NCBI GenBank assembly: GCA_015143295.1
Contig: CM026570.1
Span: 7,216,047-7,280,046, forward strand
Direction of reading: 5' to 3'
Length of the DNA: 64,000 bases
From: Tetracentron sinense
Lineage: Eukaryota; Streptophyta; Magnoliopsida; Trochodendrales; Trochodendraceae
Shown here in pieces: positions 5,151 through 62,665 of this stretch. The notes below the pieces were generated by a model, which made no database searches, had not been told where the DNA came from, and worked only from the letters and a program-made list of their open reading frames with translations. Numbering within the stretch: position 1 is the stretch's first letter; each line of letters begins with the position of its first letter. The position numbers and the translations under genes were made by a program.

Positions 5151-8100
5151 AGGTTAAAAATATTATTTCTAAGGGTTAATAAATATCAATGGTAATTAAA
5201 AAGAGTTAAAAGGGAGACACATGTGTTCCATAGAGATATATTGAAATGACATTAATCACCTCATTTTTCTCGTTAAGTGTTTTTTTAAAATCTTTTTAAC
5301 TGTGGTTAAGATTCACCGACTCTTATGATCACAACATCTAACTTTAGTTTTTAGAAAGAAAAAAAAATTAACCTCACATGAGTTAAAATTTATGAACCAT
5401 AGTTCAAAAAAGTTTAAAGGGACTTTGTGAGGATGAGGAACCATAGTCCACTCCTCACCCGATGAGAGGATTAATGCTCATATTAAAAAAGGTTGTGATG
5501 GTGCAGGCCACGGTCCAAGAGTCCAAGAATCAGGTCTGCTGGATCTTATCTATACTGTCACCACCCCTTAAAAGGAAAATAATCAACTCATACTATATTT
5601 TCGCCGCTCAATAATCAACTCATACTATATTTTATGGGACCCCGAGATAAGCCCTTTCTGGCATCGCCAGAGACAAGCCAAGGCCTTGCTATTGATAGGG
5701 AATTGCTTTTAATTTAAAATTTAGGTGATTTGGATTTGCAATGGGCGGATTTATCTGTCCCTTTTTACTCTGGTTAAGATTCATCAACATTAAAGGTTCA
5801 ATTAATATAATCTTGATTTTTAGAAAAAAAATAATTAATTGGATTAAAACTTGTTAATCATAGTTTTTTTTTCGTTAAATTGTTAACCATAATTTAAAAG
5901 GATTTTGTGAGGGAAATGAGGAATAGTCCCCTCCTCGCTTATGAGGAGGAGATCGAATCAGAGCAAGTAAACTCAGGATGAGTTTGAGTTCAATCGCACT
6001 CACAAGTCAACACATGTCCTTTTTAATCCTAGTTAAGATTTCTTAGTCGAGTTCAACAATCTAACTTTGGTTTTCTTAAAAATATATTGAAAAAAAGTAA
6101 CCTTAGGGTTAAGAAATTTTAACCTTAGGAGTACAATTTTTTTTAAAAAAATCTAAAAACCAATATTAGATTATTGAATCTAAGGTTAGTGAATCTTAAT
6201 CATGATTAATTGAGGTTAAAAAGGAGACCCACGGGTGTGATTGAACTCTCCTTGATTTCAATTGTGATTGATCCCGTGAGGTGGGGAACATTAGGGGATT
6301 TGGTGCGAATTTGGCGGCCGGAGCATTGCAGGAGAGGAGGGGGAGGGGATTTGGGTTGCGACTTCCCCGTGGTTTGCGTGCCGACAGAGAGACGGATTCC
6401 GGATGAAGTTCCATTAAAAGTTGAGAGCATGAGAGCACGTCTCTTTATTTTTTTCCCTTTATTCATTTTTGGGAGATCTATTCCACGCACATTGAAGTCG
6501 TGTGAAAGATACATCCAACGTCCATTGCAAGACACGTTTGGGCTTTAATTGCAAATACTAGTAAGAACGCAATGCTAGGGGCTAAGGGGTTGGAAGGGAT
6601 TGAGAACTTTACATAATTGACCTTATTGTGGCTATGAATATAGTTTCAGACTAAGGGTGTTATGGTCATTTTGTATAGTCGTAATTTGGGTTTAAATAAA
6701 ATCGAGTTCCGCGTCAACTTGTTTTTCTTTCCTGTGATTATCTTATAATTATGTCACGCCTAAATAATCAAAGTCAAAAGTAGACTAAAGAAAAAAAAAA
6801 GCTACATTTAGATTATACTTTCAAACTTGGGTTGGAGTCCCGTTAAGGAAATCTCGAGATAGAGCATGCAGTTGTCCATATATCGCACTAGCGCATGATA
6901 ATAACAGAATGGTATCGCATAGATGAGTTGTCATGCCTAACTGCCTTGTAAGCGTCCTTACGGGCCAACCAAAGAAAAAAAAAATTCAAACTTTATTAAG
7001 GGTCTTATGATCATTTTTAAGGACTAGAACCTCAGTTAAGGGTAAGTGAAGCTACCACTCCAAAAGGGTCTTTCTTAAGGAGTTTAGAGAGTGTGTAGTG
7101 GCTACCTTAGGTCTAGTTGTATGTGTTGAGTTTTAAAAATGTGTGTTAGTTACCTGATAACATTTTCTTAAAAAAAAAAAAAACCCAATTTAGTCTCTGT
7201 TAACATGTGCATTAGGCATCCTTACAGGCCAGCCAGGAAAAAAAATTCAAACTTTATCAAGGGTATTATGATAATTTTTTAAGGACTTGAGAACCTCAAT
7301 TAAGGGTAAGTCAAGCAACCACTCCAAAAGGGTACGTCTTAAGGAGTTTAGAGAGGGTGTGTAGCAGCTACCTTAGGTTTGGTCGTGTGTGTTGAGTTTA
7401 GAAAATGTGTGTTAGTTACCTGGTAACATTTCCACAAAAAAAAAAACAATTTAGTATCTGTTACCATGTGAGTTAGGGTATATCTCGAGTTTAGTCTCAC
7501 CTCAGTTGGGAAGTGGACTTTGCAAGGGTGTATAAGAAGCCATCAACCCCCAGTAAGATAGGTCATTTTGGAGTGGTTGTTTGGACTTACCCTTATGTGA
7601 CCTTAGCGGTTACCTTAGGTCTGGCTATGTGTGAGTTTAGAGAGTCTGTGTGTTGGTTACATAACAACATTCCACCAATAAAAATCTCAATTAAGACTAT
7701 AAGATTAAGGAAATAGAAAACGGACTGCAAGAAGCTGACCCGTGATCTCATTGGTCTCACCCGTTTATACCACCCGTCAATGGTGGTTAAGATTCACTTA
7801 CTCCTAGGGTTAAGCAATCTAACCATGGGTTTTAGAAAAAAAAACAAAACAAAATTCTTTAACTTTAATTTAATTAAACTTAACCATGATTAAAGAGGTG
7901 TTAAAAGGAATACAGGGATACTACGGTCAGCTTAGAAGCGGACTGAGCTTGGATGTATGCTTAGGCATCATGGTTATTTTGTGAAAAACAGTTGTATTAA
8001 AGTATCATATCAAATTTTTATTCAATTTTGATTTTTTGAGGATGATTCTTCCATCCAGCGGAACGCCCACGCCCCCTCCTCTCTTCATGTGTTCATTTTA

Positions 8101-11323: not shown

Positions 11324-14300
11324 TTATAACTCTAAAGCAATCAGCTTATGTCGATTAAGATCGTTTAGGTATTTTGTTGAGTTGTATTCCTCTGCATCAA
11401 AGAGCTCCTCTGAATAGGTCCTTTGGGGTAATGGTCTTTGAGATTGTTTCACGCACTCCAAGCTTCCTTCATCACCTCTTAGTAGTTGTACAACCTGCAC
11501 CCACATGTGAACACCATTCAAACCTGCCGATAAAAAAAAAACTAGCAACAGTGTTGATTTTAGAACCTTGGTAATAAATTTTAATGTAACCATCTATAGA
11601 CTAGAAACTTATCTGGCCAGCTATTTCACTTTATTTCAGTATAAAGGTTAGAGAATAAGAAGCATGTAGATCAAATTGGCCACACAAACTACGTAGGAAA
11701 AAAAAAACGAAGATTCTCTTGTGAGGTGTTAAATTCAAATTTTGGTCAGACCATAAGGAGTGGATTCTTAGGTTGCACCTGGGAGAGGTTCTACATTGAA
11801 GTGAAACCTAACCCAATCAACTGAATATAATTATCAGTGAACATTCCCCCTAACCCTGCATCACATCTTATCTGAAAATGAAATAGGAGTGCAATAGGTT
11901 AGATGGTTAAGATCATACGATTGGGTCAATTTTTTGGCTTCGGTGATCTGATTGCGGGGACCCACCAATTGGTGGGTCGCAACTCCTTCATGTCCACCAT
12001 TTTCACCTATATATGTTGACAGACCAAACTCTTGGTCGAGCCCAACATCTACATCAAAATTTCAAATTTTTAGTTTGGATTTCCAAGATTAGCACATGCC
12101 AGACTCATTCGAGGCCGTAGATCTGAGGACTGTTGTATGCACAATGAAGCTGTCAAGACCACACGATTCATCTGTTGTGAGTCATAGGTATCTGCGAGAG
12201 AAGGATCAACAAGCTCCCTAATATCGTTCTGGTTGAGCAAAGGCTTTGCCTACACCAAGAAGTAATTGAAACAGTTTAAATCCTCAATGGCCATCTAATA
12301 TAATAGTATGCTATTATAAAATCAATTGGGGCAAAAGCAAACGTACCCATATCACAAGGCTTTGCTGGGAATTATCCAAAGCTCGGCGTCCGCTGATGAG
12401 CTCTAACAGTAGTACTCCGAAAGCAAAGACATCAGTTTTCTCATCTACTATGCCATGCATGGAGTACTCAGGAGCAAGGTACCTGCCACGGTAAGACATG
12501 AAGGACAATATAAGACTGGAAATGCTTCATACATCTCAGGAAAGAGAGGGAGTCTTAGGTATACAGACCCAAATGTGCCTTCAAATTTTGATACAGTGTG
12601 GTGAGTCCACTGCTCAGGTAGCCACTTTGCTAGCCCAAAATCGCATATCTAAATTGAACTGGACTAAGTTAGTCTTTGAAACTCCAAAGCATTGGAGAAA
12701 TAAAAGTATACATGTTCTCCTTTCAATTTTAGGCCAGTTTCTGATAATAATAGATATATTTTAAAAAGAAATTGAAGTAGATGCAACAAATAAATAACAT
12801 TGTGATATGAAGCTTTTTTGCCTATAGGCAATTTCTGTAATTTAAATTTACATCTAACTCAGAACATATAGCTCAAAAACAGGTAGTTATTGAAAGAGAA
12901 ATCCTATACCGAAGCATTCAAATTAGTTTTGAGTATGGAAAATGAAATAAGAACCAAAATTTCCTTTTGTGATTGATGGGGTGTAGAGAAGGAGAAATCT
13001 GGTAAAGAAACAACAAGAATTATAAGAATAGTTGTTCTTTGCAAGAAAATAAAATAAATCTCAGTTGTTAATTTCCAAGGAAATCACAATACAGAACCAC
13101 AAATTGCAGCAAGAATTATGGTTTTATTATTTTGATCATCCTGAGGTTTAAAGGCTACCTGAGGATCATACTGCTCTGTAAGTAAAATATTAGCAGCCTT
13201 GATATCTCTATGGATGATGCGCCTTTGACAACTCTCGTGAAGATACAAAAGACCCTCAGCTGTCCCTAAAGCAACCTTATACCTAATACCCCATTTTAGT
13301 TTTTCCTTTGAACCTAGAAAAGAGAAACACAAACAATATCAGAAAGTCCCCATAACTGTAAGTATTTGAGAAACAGGAACACAAAAAATGAAATTACCAT
13401 AAAGTAGAGATGCTAAGCTCCCATGAGGAGACAATTGAAGAACAAGGTGCATTCCTCCTTCAATCCCATACCCAATCAACTTAGCAGTATTGGGATGGTT
13501 TACATGGACGATAATCCCGAGCTCAGATAAGAAGTCCCCTATCCTCTCTTCTTGAGTTCCTCGGGTCAGCCGCTTAATTGCTACAAGCTGCCCACCTTCC
13601 AAACACCCCTTGTAAACTTCAGCATAACCACCTCTTCCGATCACATTTTCTATACAAGAGAAATAGTAGTTTGTTTTTGTCAGGCTAACACCACAATTGA
13701 ATTTTTAATCACAATTCTAAAATTGGGAATCTAATATCTGAAACACATATTACAAACCAAAGCTGAAATTGTTGGTTGCAGTTTCGAGCTCCGATAGGGT
13801 GAAGTTCTTCCAGGAAGACTTGAAATAGGATGAATCGGTATCTACAGAGGGATTCAGAGCTGGGGCCACATTCTCCCTCACACATCGGCTCTTTCTTCTT
13901 GAAAGCTTCGGAACACTGAGAGAAGTGAAGGAGGGTAAGTGCCTTATCGATCTAGTTTTCAATAAATGGAAAATTCCACGCCATTGAGAAGAGCCTCTTG
14001 GATTTGGTTGAGCTTCTGAGTCTGAGGTGCTGGGTTTGGAAGAATCCGTTTCGGATCCTAAGCTTCTTATGCAGTCTTCGAGAACTCCTCTAGGAGAGGA
14101 CATATCTAGTCTCTCCTCCATATCTAAAGATCTCAAGTTTAGTAATAATGGAAAAATCTAGCATTAGCACAGAGACAGAAAAAAAAAAAAGATACAGAAA
14201 TGCGATATCTGGGTGTAGGAAGTGAAAGATTGAGAATTTACCTTGAGCAGAAACAGAGACAGATGACAGAGTAACGGATTTTCTATGTCGAACATGAGAA

Positions 14301-26029: not shown

Positions 26030-27060
26030 TTTTTTTTTCTTCTTTTTATTTATTTTTTAATCAAAGAGGAAGTGAATCAGTGATGAACTTGGATAGGAGC
26101 AACCGTATGGTCAACTGGTACATACACATGGATGGAAGGATAGGCATTTTGTGTGTGGTAGAGAGTCTTAGAGACTAGAGAGAGACTCTCTAAAGTTATC
26201 TCCTTTGTTTGTAGGCCATATAAATGATGAGGTCCGCTGTATAAATGATGAGGGCGAACTATTGCTCGCTCTCACAAAGCCGCCCCTTCGACTGCAATCA
26301 ACTCGGTTTAAAATTTTTAATCGATGATTAGCGGACCAGGCTGGCCTAAGCCATTTAGAGGTCTAAAACCAGAATTCTAAATTTTATTGGACTCGCCATA
26401 GGGTGTTTTTTATTTTATTTTATTTTATTTTAAATTGGACATTTTTTAAGGTTTCTTTTCACTAAATCAGATTTTGATCTCGATATAAAATGAGGTCTTT
26501 TTTAAATGTGATATTTTTTAGGGTTTTTTTTTACTAAATTAGGTTTATAAAGCCATCAAAGCCTGTGCTTTGGGACCTTCATTGTTTTGTGGCCTAAAGT
26601 GTGGGTTTTGATGACTTAATGGACGGACCAGCCCTAAGCTGACCTATGCGTCTATACCTATTTTACCCTGTGCCCTCGTGTCCCATTTAACACTCATTTA
26701 ATCCTGATTAAGCTTAATTTAAGTCAAGATTTTAGTTGTTTTGTTGTTTTTTTTTTCTGAACAACCAAGGTTTGCTTAACCGGATGGATGAATCTTAACT
26801 ACAGTCTATTAATATTTAAAAGTGGGACGTCAACCAATGAGTGTCAACCATTTCATTACATTAATTTTTTTAAAAACCATAGGTAGATGGGTGAGCTCAG
26901 GATGAGTAAATCTTAATCATAGTTAAAAGGAAGTTTTTTTTAAAAGACACGTGTCAAGAAAAAAGAGATGAGACGCAGCTCCTCGCATAAGGGGCTGATT
27001 ATTTTCCATAAACGATTTGTCAACGAGCCAGATTGGTTCGACTTAGCTTGAGAATTTATA
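26030..27060. other. Promoter side of the At4g15545-like gene and AT-rich repeats
   Basis: A CT-rich leader-like stretch lies at 26160-26200 on the minus strand. Diverged copies of the GGTTAAGATT foldback family lie at about 26640-26950. No gene recognised. Confidence 0.4.
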
Positions 27061-46399: not shown

Positions 46400-46880
46400 T
46401 CTCATTGGTCCACGCGCTCCTTTTCAACACTTCTAACTGTGGTTAAGAATTAAGATGAGTCTAACCGTGGTTAAGTATTGGGATCAGTCCTGAGAGGCGG
46501 ACCCTCCGCTTCTAAGCTGACCCAAGTGTCCCCATGTCCTTTTTAACTCCTGATTAACCATGATTAAGCTTAACTAAATTAAAATTAATAATATTATTTT
46601 TTGTTTTTTTTTCTTCTAAAAATCATGGTTAGATTGTTCAACTTTAGGGGGTTAACCACAATTGATGGATCGTAAAAAAAAAGGGGGTTGAACCAATGAG
46701 GTCACTGTGCCAGCTTCTAAACTGACCGGTCGTTTTCCATTTCTTAATTAAGATTTACTCACCCTATTCGCCCATCCAAGGACCAACCTTGATTTTTATT
46801 TTTAGAAAAATAAAAATATATATTAATCATAATTTAATTAAATTTGACCATAGTTAAAAGGAACACGTTCGGTCAGCTAG
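46400..46880. repeat. Two adjacent foldback MITE fragments, GGTTAAGATT family
   Basis: The arms contain TGGTTAAG.ATT..GA on the left and TTAACC(A)CAATTGATG with AACCATGATTAAGCTTAA in the interior. This repeats the theme of 27067-27846 in shorter, more decayed form. Similar fragments lie at 35690-35850, 47940-48120, 50160-50340 and 58310-58460. Confidence 0.55.
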
Positions 46881-55562: not shown

Positions 55563-57177
55563 TGTTAGGAAATTTAACTTTGTCAAGTTTTTTTTAAGAA
55601 TAAAATCAATTCTTACCATCTTTAGATTTCAAGTCTGTAACGGATAAAATTCGTAAAAAGGAGCAAAAAGAAGGGGTAAAATAGGGATTTCTCATGCTCA
55701 CAAATTCTAACAATTTAGCCGACATAAGCCCACTTGGGCTATGTGCTGGCTCACTTGAGTGTTGTCTGGCAGGTGATCTCATCATGACTACACAAGTCAT
55801 GATGACTCAAAATGCCTATAAATAAGCAAGAATCACCAGAAAGAAGGGATGGATGGTGCGAAAGGCAAGAGAGAAGAGAAAGGGAAGAAGAAGAAGAAGA
55901 GGAAGAGGAAGAGGAAGATGAAGATATGAGAAGCTTGAGTCATTCATACCCCTACCCCGAAGTGCTGTGCAGGCGGTCACTCACCTGATTCTTTCATCTT
56001 CCTTTGGTGTTATCCGGCTACTTGATGCTCTTTATGGCCTCACAAGCGTTTATGGCCACCGGATTCACTCAAATAGGCCATGTCCGCCTGGTGCTCTCCC
56101 TAAACGGTCACACCGCCACTTGCACGATCTTGCAATTAATCATCTGGTGAGTGCAATCACACTTGAACTTGTGCCTGACACTGTGAATAGTGCCGAATCC
56201 GTTGTAGCGTTGTCTGCTGTGAATTGTGCCAAATTCGTTGTCGCGTTGCCTGCTGTGAATAGTGCCGAATACGTTGTGCTGTGAATAGTGCCAAATCCGT
56301 TGTCACGTTGTGTTGTGCATAGTGCCGAGCTCGTTGTCCGTTGTCTGATGTACAACGTACACGTTGTTTGCTGTACAACTTACACGTTGTCTGCTGTACA
56401 ACGTATCCGTTGTCTGATGCACAACGGATGCACAATGTATACGTTGCCAGTGCCTTATCCGAGCTACGTTGTCGGAGCTACTTTGCCAGTGCCTTATCTG
56501 AGCTACGTTGTCAGAGCTATGTTATCCGAGCTAGAGCTACGTTGTCAGTGCCTTCTGAGCTACGTTGTCGGTGCCTTATCAGAGCACGTTGTCAGAGCTA
56601 CGTTGCCAGTGCCTTATCCGAGGTATGTTGCCAGTGCCTTCTGAGCTACGTTGTCAGTGCCTTCTGAGCTACATTGCCAGTGCCTTATCCGAGCTACGTT
56701 GCCAGTGCCTTATCCGAGCTACGTTGTCAGTGCCTTCTGAGCTACGTTGTCTGTGCCTTGTCAGAGCTACGTTGTCAGAGCTACGTTGTCTGTGCCTTGT
56801 CAGAGCTACGTTGTCTGAGCTATATTCTTTGTGCCTCCTGAGCTACAATCTCCAGAGCATAACACCAGAGCTCGTCCTCAAGTGCATATGCCCAGTGCCC
56901 TCACGATAAGTATCTCTATACTATTATGTGCCTTATACTATGCTTGTGCCTTGTGCCTTATACTGTGCTTGTGCCTTATACTGACTTTATCATCGGAGCT
57001 TATTTCAAGGTGCACACCCGCCCCCTCAGGCTCATTCACAGGTGACTTTTTGCTATCATTCCTCTACCAGCTAAGCAGCTATAGACGCGTGGCATATACG
57101 AGATTTTTCCCTTTCAAAGTCTATTGCTTTTTATGAGATCTTGAAATCATTCATTTCGTTGTATTTAAAGTATTACA
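55563..57177 (+). mobile_element. Probable solo LTR (1,615 bp)
   Basis: It begins TGTTAGGAAATTTAAC and ends AAAGTATTACA. Flanks GTAAT (55558-55562) and GGAAT (57178-57182) agree at four of five positions. A TATA-like CCTATAAATAAG at 55815 would act as the LTR promoter, followed by a purine-rich GAA/GGAAGA tract (55868-55925). The body contains the long degenerate minisatellite at 56180-56830. No gag, pol or second LTR is present. Confidence 0.5.
56180..56830. repeat. Degenerate compound minisatellite
   Basis: The first part (56180-56340) repeats GTGAATAGTGCCGAATCCG-TTG units of about 30-40 bp. The second (56340-56440) repeats CTGTACAACGTACACGTTGT-type units. The third (56440-56830) is about 15 copies of GAGCTACGTTGTCAGTGCCTT with or without an ATCC spacer. 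Because unit lengths are often multiples of three, open frames run through it on both strands. They encode only the repeat and are not taken as genes. Confidence 0.85.
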
Positions 57178-57591: not shown

Positions 57592-58980
57592 ATGGACTAG
57601 AAATTGAACATTAAAAGTCTTAGTTAAAATGGCAGCAATTCTGATTCATAACTAAAAATTGTCAAACTTCTGTTTGCCTAGAACGGCAACATTGTTGCCG
57701 TGACGAAATTGAAGGTGTAGGACTAGTAGTTGAGATTGCATATTAGTAGGATGCAGTGTATATTGTCAAGTAGAGAGGTCATTATCGTCTATGCATGTCT
57801 GTGCCGTTGTCCGACTTCTCCACCTTAATAGTAAACCTTGATGGTTCGGCTAAGTTGAATGACTCACACTCCTCTTTTTATACATCTTCTACTAGTAAAT
57901 ACCCCGTGCGAAGCACGGGTAATAATTTATATTTTACTAGACATTATTATTTGTGTTAAACAAATATTAATAGAATATTATTAAAATAATTTATAACACG
58001 AAATATTATAATAATGTCTAGTAAAAATTTTTAATGTGAGAAAAGCTTGAGATTAGTGAAGATGTTGATGCAAAATGGAGATGTGATTTTTGGGAAAAGA
58101 AGCTGTTAACAAAAATTGAATGAAAAAAATCTGTAAAATTTGTAGAATACAATATTGACTCGCATTGAAAACTAGGGTTGCAGACTAACCGTGTGTCTCT
58201 ACAAAAAAAAAAAAAAAAAAAAAGGTTTTAGGTTAATAAAAAAGTTCAGATATTATAGATTACATTCAGGAAAGTAGGATCAATATATTTTGAGTCCTGA
58301 CTGCAGGTCCTCTTCTAAGCTGACTGGAGTGTCCCTTTTTAACACTTTTTTAACCATGATTAAGTTTAATTAAAATAAAATAAAAATAATTTTTTTGTTT
58401 ATCTAAAAATCATGGTTAGATTGGTTAACCCTAAGAGGTTAACCATAATTGATGTATGGTGAAAAAGGGTCATGGAATACGTTGCTCCTAAACACAAATA
58501 GAGACGTTTTAGAGAGAGAGAGAGAGAGAGACTCATACGACTTGTTGTGGAGGAGCAGGAAATAATATCAACGGCCCAACAATTCTGGTGACTGAAAATA
58601 TGAAACCTATTATGGTTCAAAAGTGAGATTGAGAATCAAAAAATCCAATGTTTCTTAAATTAGAAATTTCAGGAAAAGAGAGACAAAATAGAGAAGAGAT
58701 TCTACCCCACCAAAAAAAAAAAAAAACAAAAATTCAATCTAAATTTCGCAAGACTTTGATTAACTTTCATGAGATTTAAATATAGCTAGCAACATCCCCC
58801 AACAGTATCAGAGAGAAGTTGACAGAATTAACAAAAGACCGAACATAGTTAAAGGAAATGCAAAAACAATATATTTGTGGAGTCCACTAATTCCAAGACA
58901 ACCCATATGAATTTAGAGGCAGACCCGCCCATTTGCATGCTTCTGATTATGCTCTCCTTCGCCACATCTTGTCTATGTAG

Positions 58981-59130
58981 AACTGATCTTTGCTTTTCGA
59001 GTTAGGGCATAAATGTTGTTCGCATTCTTGAGAATGAAATAGGCGTCCAAGCTCCCCACAGGAGATCTTCCAGCAATATTCCATGTACCCACAAAGACTC
59101 TTGTCATTGAAACATGATAATCACCAGTTA
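58981..59130 (-). pseudogene. Captured fragment of a type I inositol polyphosphate 5-phosphatase gene
   Basis: The minus-strand frame contains RVFVGTWNIAGRSPVGSL followed by LKNANNIYAL. Plant type I inositol polyphosphate 5-phosphatases start their catalytic domain with (K/R)xFVGTWNVAGRSPVGSLAVDLDEWLxLKxAADxYVLGFQE-like sequence. Here the AVDLDEWL part is reduced to DAYFI and the frame stops soon after, before any catalytic residue. No flanking phosphatase exons are present, so it cannot encode an enzyme. It lies wholly inside the Helitron and is best read as transduplicated host sequence. Confidence 0.65.
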
Positions 59131-59474
59131 CATATATATACCAAAAAGGTATTAAGAAAACAAAGCAATCATCGCCATTAAAATGCAAGATCTCATCGCC
59201 ACGGAGTTAACAACTAATATTTGGGCAAGCACAAGGATAGGTTTTGGGGAAGCACAAGAAAGAGAACCTAGAGAGGGGAAAATAGATACTTAAATTTTAT
59301 AGAGTAACGCTTCGGGAGGTGGAGGTGGTCAACGACGGTAACGCTTCGGTAATCCTCGTAATGGGAGAAGAAGAGGAAAGTTCTGGAAGACAAATGAGGG
59401 GATTTAAGTATAGAAGATTGGGGGAACATGGAGAGAGGTTAAGGATGAATGAGGAGAGAGAGAGAGGGTATATG

Positions 59475-59664
59475 TTAATGGAGTAAGTGGAGAGATTGAT
59501 GTTTTAATGGAGGAGATGAAACGTATTTGGAGAGAGAGAGAGAGAGGAGGCCAACCTGGATGGGAGTTAATGGAGTTAGTGGAGAGATTGATGTTTTAAT
59601 GGAAGAGATGAAACGTATTTGGAGAGAGAGAGAGAGAGGAGGGGAGGCCAACCGGGATGGGAGT
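59475..59664. repeat. 93-bp tandem duplication inside the Helitron
   Basis: Two units starting TTAATGGAGT(A/T)AGTGG each contain GAGATTGATGTTTTAATGGA and AACGTATTTGG plus a (GA)n tract and AGGCCAACC. They differ at a handful of positions and in the GA-tract length. Confidence 0.85.
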
Positions 59665-60474
59665 TTAACAAATGGATTTTGGATTGAGGAAAATTAATGG
59701 AGGACAGAGAGGGTTCAAAGAGATAACACTTATTGTGACAGATAGCAAAATTTGGAGAGGGAAGAGAGTATGTACAAAACCTCGGATTGTCTCTTACGAA
59801 GCCAAAGAGGGCTTGTCTTGAGGTTCCATAGAATAGGTGACAAGTGGTGGAGAAGTCAAAATCATGGGCCATGATTTTGACTTCTTCACACATATTAAGA
59901 CACGTGGCGATAAGTGTATGAAATTAAGGGGGAGAGATATCAAATAGGGAGAAGTCAAAATCAGGAGAGAAAATGGAATGACTTCTCACCATTTTTTGGC
60001 CAACTGTCGCACAATGGTTGGAACCCCGAGACCAGTTTCACTTCGCTAGAGACAATCCAAGGCCTGTACAAAGAGGTTTTTTTTTCTCACAAATAGAATT
60101 TAATAAGTAATGAATAGTACAGATGTGGCATCAAAAATAGAAAAGGGAGATCAAAGAGGGATGCTCCGTTGGCATCCCTATTTCTATAATATATAGTATA
60201 GATGCATATTAGCATCATATTATCTTATAATTAATGATCGAACGAGAAATATGGGCGGAATCTCATGCGAGTCATATGTTTAGAAAATGACGTGGAAAGA
60301 TTAGTTGGATCATTCAAGGCATTGGTACCCGCCAATCCAACAACCATGACGAATGCCCAACAACATGATCCTAATTATCTGATTGAATGACTTTTATGTG
60401 TAGTCAATACCCAAAAGAAGATGACTGATCTATAGATTATAAGAACATTGCAGCCCTATGAATATATATAGAGT

Positions 60475-61800
60475 AGCATTTTAATGAGCCATATATATAA
60501 AATGAAGCCATATATGCTCATTGAAGCTTGTAATGAGCGGTCCCTAATAATGTGACACATGATAAGTTGTTTAAGAATTTAACCATTGGATGTCAAGATG
60601 GGTTACTTGTGAGATACGTGGTAAAAAATTAGCTCGATCGGACATTTATAGACCATCCGATCGAAGAAGGGAAAATCAGTCATTTTTATATCCTAGGTAA
60701 GATCTAGTGAACCTTAAGGTGTTAATGATACAAATTAGGGTCTAATCAGACAGTCTAAACATGTCCAATTAGACTAATTTTTTTTTACACGAGTCTCCAA
60801 TGAACCCAACTTAACATCTAACGGTCGAATTCAAAAAAATATGTCATGTGTCATCTTTCTAAAGAGACTTCTCATTACAAGCTTCAAGCTTCAATGAGCA
60901 TGATTCAATAGTACGCTTCCCTATATATATATAATATGTATTAAGTAACATTTTAGTAAGTTATGCTCATTAAAGCCTTAAATTACCTGTCCTGATAAGG
61001 TAATAAGTTGTTTCGGAATCTGATCGTTGAATGTCAATGAATTGCCTGAGAGAGGCATGACAAAAATTCAGCTCGATCGAACATTTATAAACCGTCCGAT
61101 TGAAGATGGAAAAATCAGTAATTTCTATATTCTAGGTAGGGTCTAGTGAACCCAAGGAGGTTAATACTAAGAAACTGTGATCTAATCAAACAATCTAAAT
61201 ATGTTCGACCAGGCTGATTTTTGACACATGTCTCCTAATGGACCTACGTACCTTATGTTTGAAAGTTGTCATGAATTCTACCCGTAGGATTCATGATAAC
61301 TCATTGACGACCCAAATGACCCGATTAATGGGTAATATTTGGGTTTTCTAAAATTTTGACTTGATTAATGGCTCAACCCGTTTTGAGTATTTTACCCATA
61401 TTGTCTATTATGTTGTAATCCTAAATATATAAAATATTTTAGGGTTTATTTCAAAAGGGTGGAGAGAGAACCATAAACTGTGTGTAAAAGGAAAAAGGGT
61501 TTCCAAGTGATTGTTTTGTAGAAATTTCATTGTTGAATAGTAGAATTGATCATCGATGCCTGTGGGCGTAGGCTTCTTGTCAAACCATGTAATTCATGTC
61601 TTTCTTGTGGTTTGTTTTTGCTTCCATTCCTTTTGCTTGTTTACTGTTTTAGATTTGCAAGCTTTCGTACAATACCTTAAAATCCAATGTCCAATTCAAA
61701 AAAAAAAAAAACTGAGATGTATCATCTTCCTAAAGTGACCGCTCAATTTGAGCGTTAATGAGCATCGCTCAATAGTATATCTCTACGGTAGGTATATATA
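60475..61800. repeat. Tandem pair of ~450-bp repeats, second copy split by an LTR
   Basis: Copy 1 (about 60475-60925) and copy 2 (about 60945-61250 continuing at 61680-61790) share, in order, ATAAGTTGTTT, AGCTCGATCG, GGTCTAGTGAACC-like blocks, the TCTAATCA..CAGTCTAAA block and TGAGCAT.RYTCAATAGTA. Their AATGAGC termini hint at an inverted-repeat element, but I could not define its ends. Confidence 0.6.
61256..61672 (+). mobile_element. Solo Copia-type LTR (about 417 bp)
   Basis: It runs from TGTTTGAAAG to CTTTCGTACAA and is flanked by TACCTTA on both sides (61249-61255 and 61673-61679). The TSD is normally 5 bp, so the exact ends may shift by one or two bases. It contains TGTGGGCGTAGGCTTCTTG..AAACCATGTAAT, the Copia LTR hallmark. 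Removing it restores continuity of the ~450-bp repeat it interrupts. Confidence 0.7.
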
Positions 61801-62083
61801 TATACATCAGCATATCTTGAACCATTGAAAGAACACACCTACCCTAATTTCCCTACTTTTATTTCACTGTAAAGAAAGAAAAAGAGATACTCAAACCTTA
61901 GAGTGGAAATGAAGGCCACATTTCGAAGAGTGAAAGCAAACTCATACCATTTTACGTACAAGCAAGCCCTTCCTAGTCCCTGCCCATCTCTCTCTATAAG
62001 TACCAAAAAAATGTTACAAGACCCATAAACCAAAACACCCATAACAGTCACTTATTTGAAGATCAAAACCAAAAAGATCCCAA

Positions 62084-62665
62084 ATGGCTGGAACCAACAA
62101 GTCTTCTACAAAATCTGGTAGAAGCATTCAAGAATCAATATCAGACAAGACACTCACAGGAGTAGGTAACCTCATTAAGCTTCTCCCCACTGGGACTGTC
62201 TTCTTGTTCCAGTTCCTCAATCCTGTTCTAACCAACAATGGCCATTGTCACACCATTAACAAGTATTTATCCGGAATTCTTCTCGGCGTTTGCGGCTTCT
62301 CTTGTTGTTTCTCTTCTTTTACGGACAGTTATACTGGCAGCGATGGAATGACTCACTATGGGGTAGCAACCACAAAAGGACTTTGGCCCTCGCCAGAGGC
62401 GGGCTCGGTGAGATTATCGGGGTACAAGCTTCGAATAGGAGATTTTGTTCATGCTTTCTTCTCCTTGATTGTATTCATCACGGTCGCTCTCTTGGATTCC
62501 AACACGGTGGAGTGCTTCTATCCGTCTTTTGAGTCTAACCAGAAGATGTTGCTTATGGTATTGCCTCCCATTGTTGGTGCAGTCTCAAGCTCGATGTTCA
62601 TGACATTCCCTAACAAGCGTCATGGCATTGGGTATCCTCCAAGCCAGGCCTCAGAGGAGTCCTAG
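62084..62665 (+). CDS. DUF679/DMP family membrane protein
   Basis: An intact single-exon 193-aa protein of the plant-specific DUF679 membrane protein (DMP) family. These are small four-helix proteins of the tonoplast and ER, linked to senescence and membrane remodelling; the distinct DMP8/9 branch acts in fertilisation. The short hydrophilic N terminus leads into [20 protein letters not shown] (24-43). Predicted helices are about 35-51, 61-79, 119-137 and 155-175. Family blocks [12 protein letters not shown] (51-62), FTDSY (79-83), [13 protein letters not shown] (114-126), [16 protein letters not shown] (136-151) and [11 protein letters not shown] (175-185) are all present. It resembles the DMP1-5 type, not DMP8/9, because the long basic N terminus of the latter is missing. 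The start codon is the first ATG of the open frame and fits the family length. Confidence 0.93.

Follow-up and report, generated by a model that had tools for sequence, protein, structure and literature searches.

A probable non-autonomous Helitron carrying a putative inositol polyphosphate 5-phosphatase exon in Tetracentron sinense

Helitrons of plants can carry fragments of host genes, and we describe here what is very probably such an element in Tetracentron sinense. It lies in a 64,000-nucleotide stretch of DNA (GenBank assembly GCA_015143295.1, contig CM026570.1, positions 7,216,047 to 7,280,046), hereafter the window, where it occupies positions 57892 to 60202 of the minus strand (2311 bp, flanked by A and T). 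In all probability it is a decayed, non-autonomous Helitron, the ancestor of which acquired, from a gene for an inositol polyphosphate 5-phosphatase, an exon with intron sequence on either side, and was copied to several sites. Its classification as a Helitron-type element is based on its termini, a 3' boundary common to its relatives and a 5' end belonging to a repeated family. The termini, the common 3' boundary at several sites, the position of the exon in the copies together with the splice signals of three of them, and the later damage to the window copy were all read directly.

Termini and copies of the element

Read along the minus strand, the element starts as A|TCTATACTATATATTATAG; the T is position 60202 and the preceding A pairs with position 60203, so that TC follows A as in canonical plant Helitrons. 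The 3' terminus (57892 to 57919, minus strand) consists of a 17-nt hairpin at 57903 to 57919, with a 7-bp stem and a 3-nt loop (CCCGTGC-TTC-GCACGGG), followed by 7 nt, CTAG at 57892 to 57895, and T. The hairpin therefore stands 11 bp from the terminus and precedes CTAG|T, which agrees with the plant Helitron 3' rule as given in a study of Lolium, namely CTRR before T with a 16-20 bp hairpin 8-12 bp from the terminus (PMC2702305). Both termini had been proposed in a preliminary description of this DNA, A|TC at 60202 and a 7-bp-stem hairpin with CTAG|T at 57892, and they proved exact to the base.

Both strands of the window were scanned for 3' ends of this kind, i.e., a stem of at least 6 with at least 60% G+C, a loop of 2-6, a gap of 4-14 and CTRR|T. 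The 3' end of the element was the sole hit; 20 first-order Markov sequences gave a mean of 0.4 such ends, none of them with a stem of at least 7. The longest stop-to-stop open reading frame (ORF) in the element encodes 115 aa, and none of the five of its ORFs that were tested had a Pfam match to a Rep-helicase or to anything else, as is expected of a non-autonomous copy. Exact scans with a 23-base pattern taken from the 3' end gave no matches in genome contigs or in viral contigs, a search space from which the window's own genome was possibly excluded.

Copies were sought in the window's own genome (1.16 Gb). A search with the whole element returned five long relatives, L031 to L035, and a shorter match, L036. 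L031 and L032 come from the same regional duplication (93% over 8.4 kb) and L033 and L034 from a second (98% over 9.3 kb), and with these pairs merged five sites were counted: the window, L031/L032, L033/L034, L035 and L036. At all five, similarity to the window sequence breaks off within two bases of CTAG, a T comes next on the element strand, and the flanking sequences are dissimilar. The 3' boundary is thus well fixed by agreement across the five sites. An empty site was sought with the right flank of the element and none was present among the best 40 of 2628 candidates, the matches being dominated by a repeat that begins at about 60457-60514.

The 5' terminus, comprising the first 81 bp (60122 to 60202, minus strand), is a member of a repeated Helitron 5' family. 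A query of 60060-60215 recovered the window and 39 other places, these being the best 40 of 516 candidates, and an exact A|TC start was found in eight of the 19 other loci that were fetched. Members of this family are followed by a CCCGTGC-type hairpin with (C/T)TAG|T at L047 (after ~0.54 kb, with TTAG for CTAG), at L046 (~1.4 kb) and at L041/L067 (~1.9 kb). At L040 and L046 the Helitron 5' end directly abuts another Helitron-like hairpin-CTAG 3' end, i.e., these are adjoining Helitrons.

The putative phosphatase exon and its source

Judged by its sequence, the GTWNIAGRSPVGSL block within the element is a genuine fragment of an inositol polyphosphate 5-phosphatase exon. In the window a minus-strand ORF (58973 to 59206) contains RVFVGTWNIAGRSPVGSLDAYFILKNANNIYAL and then turns into unrelated codons, because 206 bp have been lost there. 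The exon remnant (RVFVGTWNIAGRSPVGSLDAYFILKNANNIYA; 59005 to 59099, minus strand) has lost the exon end and the splice donor, and one extra base stands ahead of it. In L033 to L035 the block is exon-like and lies between splice signals, in the orientation of the element and with intron-like sequence on either side. L033 and L034 read RVFVGTWNVAGRSPVG(T/N)LDDWFILKDANNIYAL, with ...TTTCAATAACAG ahead of it as the acceptor side and TTAG|GTATGTAATA behind it as the donor side; L035 has kept both splice signals and has some residues changed.

When the window reading was searched against solved structures, the best match was OCRL (E 0.067), followed by the unrelated APOBEC-3G (E 2). The less damaged reading of L033 gave seven matches, all of them inositol 5-phosphatases, with OCRL at E 0.0076 and SHIP1/SHIP2 at E 0.22-0.79. 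GTWN, which we take to be a motif of the 5-phosphatase catalytic domain, is present in the fragment; the complete catalytic domain is not, as this is a single exon remnant with no Pfam domain. A phosphatase-like block inside the element, and on the same strand as the element's own direction, had been claimed in the preliminary description, and both statements are borne out. That there are no neighbouring phosphatase exons is upheld in part: no Pfam phosphatase was found in four other ORFs of the element or in five ORFs elsewhere in the window, a partial check in which the flanks were not scanned as a whole.

A search of the genome with the DNA of the exon region, in which all 20 candidates were scored, found it at nearly full length at five loci and as two pieces in the window copy. 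It lies at the same internal place in these five loci and in the window, which together represent four independent sites. Apart from the five Helitron copies, the best of the longer matches, 84-85% alike, is L066 on contig C13; shorter pieces are 87-91% alike. L066 reads NVAGRFPVGSLAVDLDAWFNLKDADDIYAL and retains AVDL, which is absent from the window and from L033 to L035. Plant enzymes presumably read GTWNVAGRSPVGSLAVDLDEWL at this position, to which the L066 reading is nearer. L066 was considered as the intact donor and rejected, since a stop replaces the W of GTWN and marks it as a damaged copy. Contigs C6 and C24 were also candidates, since three equally spaced matches on each gave the appearance of a gene pair. 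The stretch on C6 (L065), the one of the two that was read, holds a damaged exon with a Helitron 3' end ~1.5 kb off and is not an intact donor. Further partial matches to the exon region lie on C10, C11, C18, C127, C1303, C1342, C17, C21, C4 and C2; the reading was confined to L065 and L066.

The element had been called a fresh example of capture, a description that we do not retain. Between the window copy and each of the five long copies, the Kimura two-parameter distance is 0.054-0.067 (1267-1318 compared bases of the common part). A 286-bp miniature inverted-repeat transposable element (MITE) is nested at 59779 to 60064, between copies of TGTACAAA at 59771-59778 and 60065-60072; this MITE occurs at no fewer than about 33 places in the genome, and none is present at the corresponding place in L031 or L032. 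A GA-rich tandem duplication with a spacing of 92 bp occupies 59474 to 59665, and at 59004 to 59007 (minus strand) lies the junction of the deletion, where the 206-bp stretch present in L031 to L035 is missing. The element is not fresh, because its distance to other copies is ~0.06 and because it bears the nested MITE, the tandem duplication and the deletion. From its sequence the captured piece looks dead in the window copy; in L033 to L035, where the splice signals are kept, splicing of the exon into read-through transcripts is conceivable.

These features can be accommodated as follows. An ancestral element would have captured a small piece, intron-exon-intron in structure, from an inositol polyphosphate 5-phosphatase gene that we infer to have belonged to the same genome. 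A Rep-helicase supplied in trans would recognise the ends, starting at A|TC and stopping at the hairpin with CTAG|T, and rolling-circle transposition would insert the element between A and T with no duplication of the target. The captured piece would have been multiplied together with the element to several sites, and the window copy would later have been damaged by the deletion and the nested MITE. No new mechanism is required.

Subtypes of the family and competing explanations

The relatives of the element have their 3' half in common and are variable in their 5' half. A 3' block of ~407 bp (57892 to 58298, minus strand) is common to the window and L031 to L036, including L036, which is free of the exon segment. 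The candidate captured segment (58299 to 59226, minus strand), made up of the phosphatase exon with intron-like remnants, is found in the window and in L031 to L035 and is missing from L036. In L033 to L036 the 5' part is of a type other than the window's. By eye, L033 starts as A|TCTATTACTTACTACTAAGGC, and the first bases of L035 and L036 are different; a frame in L035 reads ...TKTLAEIPALTDFNLNLGALNGWYSSTPSAPCD, which may resemble the start of leucine-rich-repeat receptor kinases. L036 consists of the 3' block and a 5' part of the L033 type, without a segment of ~1175 bp that includes the exon. It fuses ...CAACTCATTTTC straight to AGGACTCAAAATATATTG, i.e., the two sides of this segment, and has additional insertions of its own. 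L036 may never have acquired the segment, or may have lost it later.

The preliminary description had proposed a search for other copies with both termini, and had stated that copies ending at different positions would speak against its reading. The outcome was divided: the 3' end is the same throughout and the 5' sequences differ among copies, which in our reading reflects an exchange of 5' parts or stepwise capture and does not speak against a Helitron. As a whole, the proposal of a Helitron with a captured phosphatase exon stands as regards the termini, the strand, the common 3' boundary and the exon at the same internal place, and falls as regards freshness and shared 5' ends. We suggest tentatively, and with considerable doubt, that a fixed 3' half with the captured exon has been joined to two or three Helitron 5' halves (the window type, the L031 type, and the L033 type with its receptor-kinase-like fragment), so that capture and reshuffling in this family would proceed by exchange of the 5' part rather than by reading through the 3' end. 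The different 5' halves on an exon-bearing 3' half are the one feature here that deserves specialist attention.

Several observations weigh against a single transposed unit with a captured exon. No copy was found with both ends and the entire interior of the window element. L031 and L032 match the window only as far as 59778, and L033 to L035 only as far as 59226; the divergence from L031 sets in no more than a few bases from the MITE site. When L033 is aligned with L036, the alignment continues for ~20 bases past CTAG, with a gap, and in another comparison ~11 bases are alike, so that these two flanks are not entirely dissimilar. A TC start is lacking in 11 of the 19 fetched loci of the 5' family, among which L040 and L046 stand directly behind another Helitron-like 3' end and L055 and L056 have an identical flank. 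At L041 a competing hairpin-CTRR|T candidate lies ~1.3 kb from the 5' end, ahead of the one cited above. As for the exon, in L031 and L032 the donor GT is replaced by TT and the middle of the exon is disturbed, neither the window nor the L033 reading has a Pfam match, and its identity rests on ~33 residues around GTWN. The search of the genome with the exon-region DNA, L065 and L066 being the two partial relatives that were read, found no intact donor gene.

In an alternative that we consider unlikely, the element is a composite that was never transposed as one unit. An old Helitron truncated at its 5' side would make up the 3' part, from 57892 to about 59778, and a second Helitron, nested or adjoining, would have contributed the 5' end at 60202. 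The departure of L031 and L032 from the window sequence at 59778, beside the MITE, speaks for this explanation, no second copy links the window's 5' end to the window's interior, and L040 and L046 demonstrate that Helitrons abut in this genome; the competing candidate at L041 strengthens it slightly and weakens the single-element reading. However, the 5' family is paired with a 3' end of this hairpin type at L046, at L047 and, with the competing candidate in between, at L041/L067, and the scan for hairpin-CTRR|T revealed no second 3' end between the two termini.

Capture itself is questioned by a quite improbable alternative, that the phosphatase piece arrived within another inserted repeat or a pseudogene that landed in the Helitron. 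The segment missing from L036 ends beside a small repeat of which the window has further copies, and L066 bears the same intron-exon-intron piece at a place around which a Helitron end was not looked for. Against this, the joints of L033 compared with L036 have no visible target duplication, and L065, a damaged copy of the same piece, has its Helitron 3' end ~1.5 kb away. The small repeat was observed at 58307-58466, 46505-46679 and 7801-7943 (77-78% alike) and more weakly at 46798-46859 and 26678-26722. Finally, while TC and CTAG alone are very common, Helitron-like ends arising by chance in AT-rich DNA are ruled out by the 3'-end scan, the boundary common to five sites and the repeated 5' family.

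Neighbourhood and relation to known Helitrons

Just outside the element lies a high-copy repeat (60514-60942, with one match extending to 61244), for which there are at least 115 matches, the window's own included; they are mostly ~83% alike and there are inverted internal matches. About 1.9 kb from the 5' end of the element, a plus-strand ORF of 201 aa (62060-62662) encodes a full DUF679 domain (Pfam E 1.9e-66) and is presumably a DMP-type membrane protein. Overlapping repetitive open frames with SELRCQCL-like units at 55922-56909 are probably a minisatellite. Further away, a protein kinase exon was found on the minus strand at 13342-13704 (PF07714, E 4.8e-12); an open frame beside it (13753-14157, minus strand) has no Pfam match, and the two together are perhaps one kinase gene.

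The decayed, exon-carrying Helitron proposed here closely resembles published plant elements. In Lp-psGI.1 of Lolium, termini of this kind enclose a fragment of GIGANTEA (PMC2702305). The apparent A|T target, 5' TC and hairpin shortly before CTAG|T are as in Lp-psGI.1 and in maize and rice Helitrons (PMC2702305, PMC2575219), as are the lack of a detected Rep-helicase and the presence of gene fragments with exon and intron. It differs from these elements in the gene and the genome concerned, and in that the window copy is decayed with a nested MITE. Related maize Helitrons with or without one middle segment were read by their authors as the result of stepwise or sequential capture (PMC3288121). 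The present family is similar in having a common 3' end with some of the fragments and one relative without the middle segment, and unlike them in that its 5' ends differ between subtypes. A literature search on the terms Helitron and inositol polyphosphate 5-phosphatase, with no other wording, brought up a paper on wheat NADPH oxidases and no printed case of a Helitron with this gene.

This is an ordinary case, as plant Helitrons with gene fragments, and the stepwise acquisition of such fragments, have already been described (PMC2575219, PMC2702305, PMC3288121). What it adds is a well-bounded, exon-carrying Helitron together with an exon-free relative and other 5' halves, which could let the order of the steps be worked out.
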